Shown piece by piece: positions 341 to 6,498 of a DNA stretch of 40,129 bases (its first letter is position 1; every line of letters starts with the position of its first letter). The translations under genes and the position numbers were made by a program. Source of the DNA: Candidatus Daviesbacteria bacterium (GTDB lineage: Bacteria; Patescibacteriota; Microgenomatia; Daviesbacterales; UBA10151); the NCBI GenBank assembly GCA_027451625.1, contig DAIDIY010000046.1, positions 1 to 40,129 of the forward strand. Direction: 5' to 3'. A model generated the notes under the pieces. That model worked only from the letters and a program-made list of their open reading frames with translations. It was not told where the DNA came from and ran no database searches.

Positions 341-370
341 TTGCAATTTATGCCTAATTCATGCTAAAAT
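341..370 (+). promoter_or_regulatory. putative sigma70-type promoter of the L3 (S10-type) operon
   Basis: TTGCAA (341-346), 18-nt spacer, TGcTAAAAT extended -10 (TAAAAT 365-370); predicted leader of about 150 nt. Confidence 0.55.
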
Positions 371-379
371 TCTTTTTGC

Positions 380-528
380 ACCATGTTAAATGGTTCAGAA
401 ACGTAATATAAATTAAAAATTTCAGTGAATTGTGCGTCACTCTCAGTTAATTGATAGTGATACGACAATTTCAAATACAGCACAATTACTGAGTGAGATC
501 CTAAGGTTTCCAAGGGACTCACTTTTTT
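380..528 (+). promoter_or_regulatory. structured 5' leader of the ribosomal operon, with hairpins, possible pseudoknot and terminator-like hairpin
   Basis: ACCAT-GTTAA-ATGGT (380-394); AATTGT.CG.TCACT/AGTGA.CG.ACAATT (428-470); loop CTCAGTTAATT complementary to AATTACTGAG (484-493); AGTGAG.TCC/GGA.CTCACT plus T-run (492-528). Confidence 0.6.
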
Positions 529-541
529 AATGGTTTTAAAT

Positions 542-1267
542 ATGATTAGTTCATTATTAGGAACAAAAAAAGGAATGGCAGTTTCATACGATGCTCGCGG
601 TAGACGGGTAGGAGTGACCATGATTGAAGTGACTCCTAATCTGGTTACTATGGTGAAGAAGAGCGGAGAGAAAGATGGGTATAATTCAGTACAATTAGGA
701 ACGGGATCTAGGCGAACAATAAATAAGCCTCTAGAAGGACTATTAAAAAAGAGAGGATTTACAGAAAGAGTGCAATATTTACGAGATGTTAGAGTAGATG
801 AAGCAGATGTAAAGGAAGGTTCTGCAATATCTTTAAATCAAGTGTTTTCTAAGGGAGACTCTGTTAAAGTTACCGGAGTGAGTAAAGGTAAAGGATTTCA
901 AGGAGGAGTGAGAAGATACGGTTTTGCAGGAGGACCTAAGACTCATGGTCAATCTGATCGTCATCGTGCTCCGGGATCTATCGGTCAAACAACTACTCCT
1001 GGACGGGTTTATAAAGGGAAAAGAATGGCAGGACATATGGGGATGGAAACTGTTTCAGTTCGTAATCTGGAAGTGATTGGAGTAGATCGAAAGAATAATA
1101 TTTTAACTGTTAAGGGAGGAATACCTGGATACAGAGGATCTTTGTTGATGGTTACCCTGTTGGGAAAGATTAAGGGATACACTCCTCCACCTGAAGAGAA
1201 AGAGGAAGAAGAAGAACCTGAGAAAATAAATACTGAGAATACCAATGGAGAGCAGAAAGGTGAGTAG
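542..1267 (+). CDS. rplC: 50S ribosomal protein L3 (uL3) with acidic C-terminal tail
   Basis: LLGTKKGMAVSYD N-terminus and GSIGQTTTPGRVYKGKRMAGHMG motif; start at 530 or 542. Confidence 0.95.
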   Translation: MISSLLGTKKGMAVSYDARGRRVGVTMIEVTPNLVTMVKKSGEKDGYNSVQLGTGSRRTINKPLEGLLKKRGFTERVQYLRDVRVDEADVKEGSAISLNQVFSKGDSVKVTGVSKGKGFQGGVRRYGFAGGPKTHGQSDRHRAPGSIGQTTTPGRVYKGKRMAGHMGMETVSVRNLEVIGVDRKNNILTVKGGIPGYRGSLLMVTLLGKIKGYTPPPEEKEEEEEPEKINTENTNGEQKGE

Positions 1268-4117: not shown

Positions 4118-4765
4118 ATGGGACAAAAAATTAATCCAGTAGGATTTAGAATGGGGGATGTCGCAACATGGCAGTCAAGATGGTTTGCAGACTCTAAAAA
4201 ATATCATGAATATGTAGCTCAAGATATAAAAATTAGAGAGATGCTATTTAAAAAATTGAAGCCAGCAGCTCTTAGTCGAGTTGAGATTGAGAGAGCGAGT
4301 AATAAACTTAGAATCCTATTATATGTTGGACGGCCTGGAGTCTTAATAGGTCGAGGCGGGGCGGGGCTTATGGAACTGAAAAAGTTTTTGATCAAAAACT
4401 TGAGCTTAAAAGATGAGAACAGCTTGGAGATTGTACCTATGGATCTTCGTTCTCCGGATCTATCTGCATTTTTGGTGGCTCAAAATATTGCCGAACAACT
4501 TGCTAAGAGGATGCCTGCACAAAGGGTAATGAATCAATCTATAGATAGAGTTATGAGGTCTGGAGCAAAAGGAGTAAGAATTGTACTATCAGGTAGAATT
4601 GGTGGAGCAGAGATAGCAAGAAGAGAATGGAAACATTCAGGTTCAATGCCACTGCATACATTGCGTTTGGATATAGATTTTGCAATTGTTCCAGCATTAA
4701 CTAAATCTGGATATGTTGGAGTTAAGGTCTGGATAAATAAAGGTGAAAAGGAGAAAGGCGAATAA
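4118..4765 (+). CDS. rpsC: 30S ribosomal protein S3 (uS3)
   Basis: MGQKINPVGFRMG; KH-like GRPGVLIGRGGAGLMELKK. Confidence 0.97.
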   Translation: MGQKINPVGFRMGDVATWQSRWFADSKKYHEYVAQDIKIREMLFKKLKPAALSRVEIERASNKLRILLYVGRPGVLIGRGGAGLMELKKFLIKNLSLKDENSLEIVPMDLRSPDLSAFLVAQNIAEQLAKRMPAQRVMNQSIDRVMRSGAKGVRIVLSGRIGGAEIARREWKHSGSMPLHTLRLDIDFAIVPALTKSGYVGVKVWINKGEKEKGE

Positions 4766-5915: not shown

Positions 5916-6095
5916 ATGGCTAAGAAAAGTAATGTTGTCAAAATAAAAGAAAAGTATAAGGTAAGAGAACACAGCCGATGCTTACGTTGCGGCAGATCAC
6001 GCTTTATTTTAAGAAAGTTTGGGCTGTGTAGATTGTGTTTTAGAGAACTAGCCCATTCAGGTCAACTTCCTGGAGTAAAAAAGGCGAGTTGGTAA
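5916..6095 (+). CDS. rpsN: 30S ribosomal protein S14 type Z (zinc-binding, uS14)
   Basis: 59 aa, translated by eye: [59 protein letters not shown]; below the ORF track size cutoff. Confidence 0.97.
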
Positions 6096-6123
6096 AGAAT
6101 AGAAAGAGAGGAAAGATATAAAA

Positions 6124-6498
6124 ATGGATAAAATAGCAGATTTATTAATTAGAATAAAAAATGGTTATCTGGCTTCAAAGAAAGAAGTCGCGGCTCCTAA
6201 GTCAAAAATCATAGTAGCAATATGTGAGCTGTTAAAGAAGGAAGGATATGTAAGTTCATATAAAATTAACGAACGAGATGTTTTGGTATCTCTAAAATAT
6301 GAAAATCATCAACCTGTTTTACAAAATGTAAGCAGGATCTCTAAACCGGGGAGACGAGTTTACAAGGGTAGTAAAGGTCTTCCTCGAGTTCTTGATGGGT
6401 TAGGTATAGCCATAATTTCAACACCTAAAGGTTTAATGACTGATCGCCAGGCCCGTAAAGAAGGAATTGGCGGAGAGATTATGGCTTATGTTTGGTAA
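6124..6498 (+). CDS. rpsH: 30S ribosomal protein S8 (uS8)
   Basis: [62 protein letters not shown]. Confidence 0.96.

Follow-up and report, generated by a model that had tools for sequence, protein, structure and literature searches.

The question raised by this locus is whether the sequence in front of rplC (L3), the head of a ribosomal protein gene cluster, is a regulatory leader RNA and, if so, which protein reads it. The original prediction, made on the window (the whole stretch of DNA analyzed, 40,129 nt), was of a lineage-specific, switch-like leader with a terminator right before L3, bound by an operon product such as L4. We analyzed the window together with genomes of related bacteria, mostly metagenome assemblies. 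Among named relatives, the closest L3 genes are those of Candidatus Daviesbacteria, Microgenomates.

The leader and its distribution

The leader is about 150 nt long, from a conserved promoter to rplC, and the whole element spans 341–528 (Table 1). The promoter-like site, the small ACCAT/ATGGT hairpin, the long hairpin and the terminator-like hairpin with its T-run are all present much as they had been described. Transcription is expected to start near 377. In relatives, TTGCAT/A...TG.TAAAAT is found upstream of the core, as a strict pattern in 21 of 28 and by eye in most of the others. The small hairpin is kept in position but varied in sequence, and we infer that it protects the 5′ end. As for the start of L3, two ATG codons had been considered. 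The one at 542 is almost certainly correct, as judged by alignment, since MISSLLG aligns there with MINTLLG of relatives, which start with the residues encoded from 542; the reading-frame start at 530 is not conserved in them and was dropped.

Table 1 Features of the leader and of the cluster that it precedes, in window coordinates.
Feature	Position	Strand	Remarks
Source contig (window)	1–40129		contig 46 of a 1.15-Mb genome
Promoter	341–370	+	TTGCAA, 18 nt, extended -10 TGC-TAAAAT
Small 5′-end hairpin	380–394	+	ACCAT/ATGGT; position kept in relatives, sequence varied
Leader core	420–528	+	covariance model R1; one match in own genome, E 2.3e-12
5′ arm common to both alternative helices	423–435	+	423–427 P1; 428–433 P2; 430–435 P2′
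Hairpin P2	428–470	+	outer helix AAUUGU/ACAAUU and S8-like core
S8-like core, 5′ strand	434–438	+	GCGUC; corresponds to 16S 595–599
S8-like core, 3′ strand	459–464	+	GAUACG; corresponds to 16S 639–644, bulged U641 and A642
3′ arm	480–491	+	GCACAAUUACUG; pairs with 5′ arm in P1/P2′; proposed antiterminator
Intrinsic terminator (predicted)	491–528	+	stem 491/492 to 523, U-run 523–528; 491–493 common with P1
rplC (L3), first gene of regulated cluster	542–1267	+	PF00297; start by alignment to MINTLLG of relatives
rpsH (S8), proposed regulator	6124–6498	+	PF00410, E 7.4e-45

From rplC on, the cluster encodes L3, L4, L23, L2, S19, L22, S3, L16, L29, S17, S14, S8, L14, L24, L5 and L6, with rplD as its second gene. 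The S8 of the window matches E. coli S8 (the sequence group that includes 1s03) with an E-value of 1.6e-33. In the window and in all 20 relatives examined, rpsH belongs to the same cluster as the leader (gene order by tblastn) and, in all 20, lies about 6–8 kb downstream of it. In S8, the Y of R(V/I)Y is retained, as is the S-T of the ST(S/P)KG loop; the third loop position is P in the whole family, with P instead of S at residue 107 (E. coli numbering). The place of the S14–S8 pair differs: in the window (5916–6498) it lies between S17 and L14, shifted ahead of L14 and still inside the cluster, and in the 20 relatives between L5 and L6.

Conservation and covariation in relatives, which the prediction of a lineage-specific switch called for, were both found. 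The R1 covariance search detected the leader in 43 of the 45 genomes of the family, in each as one copy directly before rplC, and in several relatives it lies 3′ of rpsJ. Of the first 30 loci retrieved, the window among them, 28 have a region upstream of rplC that follows the order TTTCAGTAGATCGCGCGTC–variable–GATACGGCGATT–linker–AGCGAAATACTGAGTGAG–loop–CTCACTCTTTTT. Two family genomes gave no match: in G002, the leader is cut by the contig end, and in G015 (L009/L171) it is disrupted. G015 is a naturally occurring deviation from the rest of the family: its leader is interrupted after GCGCGTC, unrelated sequence comes after the 5′ part, the terminator is missing and a coding-like stretch lies between the broken leader and L3.

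Outside the family, an R1 search of 385 genomes of the class gave only two weak matches (G167 and G124), to the terminator part alone and not adjoining rplC, and a sample of 389 genomes of the phylum returned family members only. An Rfam search of the window yielded only a tRNA above the gathering threshold and nothing meaningful for the leader at a relaxed threshold; no Rfam family matches the leader.

Competing helices and the terminator

Two helices compete for one 5′ arm and are mutually exclusive. P2 pairs 428–433 with 465–470 (consensus GAUCGC/GCGAUU), and P1/P2′ pairs 422–435 with 480–492 (consensus CAGUA..UCGC / GCGA..UACUG). Both covary, with scores that exceed all 500 shuffles; this support is found on an alignment built from sequence only and on a larger one, which was fitted to P2 and not to P2′. 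The leader of the window folds better than all 200 of its dinucleotide shuffles (z -3.2), and its minimum-energy fold contains P1/P2′.

In alignment A2, the covariation extends over three strands. Column 12 with columns 132 and 171 reads C/G/G in 30 rows and U/A/A in 12, and column 14 with columns 130 and 169 reads C/G/G in 25, U/A/A in 9 and U/G/A in 5. Both forms occur inside single genera (in g26, G058, G064 and G066 have U/A/A and the other members C/G/G; in g32, G033 differs from G031), so the three-strand change arose more than once. The terminator stem also covaries, with 100% of its cells paired and with compensation such as GAGUGAG/CUCACUC versus GGGUCGA/UCGACCC, and all aligned leaders retain the U-run that directly follows the hairpin.

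The S8-like core of P2 is flanked by helices on both sides. The outer helix has four to six pairs in 39 of 40 leaders, and the inner side is short in several, those with 4-nt loops. The loop region ranges from 4 to 46 nt in relatives and its sequences are unrelated (e.g. CGUC-GAGA-GAUACG, with a 4-nt loop). A pseudoknot between the hairpin loop CTCAGTTAATTGAT and 484–493, as originally proposed, is accordingly not conserved. The longer alternative pairing of 437–452 with 484–496 is not kept in relatives either, and the alternative that does covary is the pairing of the 5′ and 3′ arms (423–435 with 480–491).

Some leaders depart from the regular form. In G007, G019 and G021 (L006, L018 and L020), the outer arms and GCGUC...GAU(A/G)C are kept and the P2 region is rearranged, and two of these three carry an extra hairpin of CTCAGGA...TCCTGAG type. 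The leaders of G010, G023 and G032 (L005, L021 and L026) carry an identical 35-nt hairpin, CCCCCTTCGCTAAAGCTACGGAGGGACAAGTCGGA, in the P2 loop, which is probably a mobile repeat tolerated by the S8-like core.

Likeness of the P2 core to the S8 site of 16S rRNA

The core of P2 reads (G/A)CGUC...GAUACG in all 41 regular leaders, invariant save for G or A at the position of 595. At the S8 site in helix 21 (h21) of 16S rRNA, positions 595, 596 and 644 form a base triple, 595-(596-644), with A-(A-U) found in E. coli and G-(C-G) in T. thermophilus (PMC4176348). The site further comprises a 597-643 pair with U641 and the invariant A642; the same element is found in spc mRNA (Davlieva et al. 2014, PMC4176348). 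The leader core fits this site position by position, as G595-(C596-G644), 597-643, U598-A640, U641, A642 and C599-G639, with the triple in its T. thermophilus form. Over the 41 regular leaders, the triple is G-(C-G), or A-(C-G) in three of them, and in every one 597-643 is G-C, 641 is U and 642 is A. The rearranged G007 leader has GAUGC at the likely equivalent of the last of these. The bulged U and A, together with the purine of the core, are the only invariant unpaired bases of the leader. In its sequence features, the leader thus carries what defines an S8 site, and we refer to it as a putative one.

The core of h21 in the 16S rRNA of the window's own genome is GCAUC...GAUAUG, from which the leader core differs only by one compensatory pair (597-643, A-U to G-C). 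In G001, the 16S core is of E. coli type (AAGUC...GAAACU) and the leader core is GCGUC...GAUACG. When 16S and 23S genes were scanned for the S8 motif, one fixed recurrent place was found, namely h21, in 15 of 21 16S loci (the other six had no h21 match under the strict descriptor), with no fixed place in 23S; on the genome's own 16S locus, the descriptor finds h21 only. With at least four outer pairs required, the descriptor gives 2.4 chance matches per 40-kb strand and hence about 0.01 per 150-nt leader, a figure that applies before conservation in 41 genomes is counted. The leader match has seven outer pairs, the most of the ten matches in the window.

The rRNA loci also offered an observation of their own. 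In the genome's 23S locus (L083), near 4524 on the reverse strand, an insertion with a LAGLIDADG-like reading, AGFLDGDGSIYVRV, lies before the 23S 3′ end, and 16S and 23S matches are over-long in many relatives, which suggests introns.

Proposed regulation by S8 and alternatives to it

Across the family, the sequences contain a conserved leader with two exclusive covarying helices, one of which holds a mimic of the S8 site, and a terminator ahead of the first gene. As in autogenous leaders, the 5′ UTR is structured and covarying and lies consistently upstream of the operon that encodes the proposed ligand; the layout upstream of the first gene, a promoter followed by a leader and an intrinsic terminator, is that of an attenuator. 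The reading that we favor, with a probability of about three in four, is that S8 autoregulates the ribosomal cluster headed by rplC through this leader RNA, by attenuation of transcription.

According to this proposal, without free S8 the 5′ arm would pair with the 3′ arm as P1/P2′, taking one to three pairs from the base of the terminator, which would be weakened, and the cluster would be transcribed. Excess S8 would bind and hold P2, making the 5′ arm unavailable; with P1 lost, the full terminator could form and transcription would end before rplC. That S8 would lower expression of the cluster, we infer from its negative feedback in E. coli. In folding predictions, P1 is present in 34 of 40 free leaders and in 39 of 40 leaders that end before the 3′ arm of the terminator. 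Imposing P2 removes P1 from 37 of 40 predicted folds and raises the predicted pairing of the two nucleotides at the terminator base from 0.33 to 0.93. In the other three, P1 persists, and the leader of the window itself is among these. Further points weigh against the proposal. The thermodynamically predicted cost of holding P2 (median 5.4 kcal/mol) must be paid by S8 binding, and as P1 overlaps the terminator by only 1–3 nt in predicted folds, the antitermination effect is possibly modest. The P at residue 107 of S8, the six 16S loci that lack an h21 match, the E. coli-type 16S core of G001 and the three leaders with a rearranged P2 region also speak against it.

S8 could also bind the leader and yet act on rplC translation or on mRNA stability, with the hairpin blocking ribosomes or protecting the RNA. 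E. coli offers a precedent, as S8 there represses translation at rplE and retroregulates the upstream genes (PMC10931766). Moreover, the hairpin often ends near the start codon, and in most relatives we saw no clear Shine-Dalgarno sequence. We nonetheless hold such a mode of action to be unlikely, given the constant U-run behind the hairpin and a distance from U-run to ATG that varies from 0 to >40 nt, a spread easier to reconcile with termination than with ribosome blocking. An unrelated intrinsic-terminator hairpin with a U-run also stands at this place, just before rplC, in 18 of the 20 further families of the class that were compared (L062–L081), versus 9.5% of control windows.

That the ligand is another operon protein, such as L4, and the resemblance to the S8 site incidental, we consider improbable. 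L4 controls the E. coli S10 operon by attenuation and translation (PMC10931766), and rplD is close at hand here as the second gene, yet beyond this analogy we found no positive support for L4, the ligand first suggested. The invariant leader nucleotides coincide instead with the S8-binding core of h21, S8 is itself encoded in the operon, and the descriptor would rarely match a leader by chance. Domain I of the genome's own 23S rRNA does match the leader locally in a few short words (GATACG and AGCGAAAT), but GATACG is not kept at that place in other 23S genes of the family, and there are GCACAAUU-type leaders without AGCGAAAU. For mimicry of 23S H18–H20 as an L4 site, the local words match in the window's own genome only, and we do not favor it. 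A riboswitch, or a sensor of a small molecule or RNA polymerase factors in place of a ribosomal protein, is very improbable: two alternative helices and a terminator are a riboswitch layout too, but the leader is found in single copy and before the ribosomal operon only, and its sole invariant unpaired bases are those of the S8 core.

Regulation by S8 through attenuation, as favored here, can be compared with known systems. The S8 operator of the E. coli spc operon lies in the initiation region of rplE, the third gene, inside the operon, and blocks translation (PMC10931766). The Daviesbacteria leader resembles it in the h21-like core, with the 595-(596-644) triple, the 597-643 pair, U641 and A642 (PMC4176348), and in the proposed regulator. 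It differs in its location at the 5′ end of an rplC-headed cluster and in being joined to a terminator and an alternative helix. It shares with the E. coli S10 leader, read by L4, a place in front of an operon that contains rplC, a terminator hairpin immediately ahead of the first gene and, as proposed here, control at the level of attenuation; the recognition element and, on present evidence, the ligand are different, and in several relatives the Daviesbacteria leader comes after rpsJ. The Archaeoglobi L4 and Alphaproteobacteria L2 leaders are likewise predicted ribosomal protein leaders from the same operon region (Eckert and Weinberg 2020, PMC7247131), although from other lineages and with other assigned ligands.

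An S8 leader is absent from the table of 20 new leaders in that study (PMC7247131); our literature check on S8 leaders is incomplete, and an earlier description is possible. S8 feedback is textbook knowledge for E. coli and V. cholerae, and a 2024 review describes S8 regulation in other bacteria as unknown (PMC10931766). As far as the same incomplete check goes, all S8 feedback described to date is from E. coli-like bacteria and works by a different mechanism. If our reading is true, the candidate phyla radiation has an S8 leader whose rRNA mimicry is visible in the sequence, and S8 acts at the head of the whole cluster, apparently via transcription. The leader would be a simple switch among bacteria whose gene regulation has hardly been studied.

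Attenuation before rplC may be general in the class, with the sensors exchanged. The hairpins of the other families are often followed by TTTTTT-NNTGG/C, and the leaders upstream of them are unrelated to the one described here. A search for the S8 core in the rplC leaders of 20 other families gave no leader match, with one match inside the rplC coding region. A wider scheme, which we put forward tentatively and hold to be possible rather than probable, is that the rplC terminator is the common output in Microgenomates and is combined with family-specific ribosomal protein sensors; that of Daviesbacteria would be an h21 mimic read by S8, giving S8 control over transcription of the joined S10–spc cluster.

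Two minor observations were also made. In several loci of the other families (L064, L070, L072 and L080), GGAGGTGA-like words follow a promoter-like site. A nearly identical 37-nt stretch, CTGAGGGAAGATTCTAATTTAGGGTCTCCCTCTTTT, is present in the genomes of three families (L084 989–1064, L085 341–404 and L093 252–322); it is terminator-like, with a conserved loop and similar sequence downstream.
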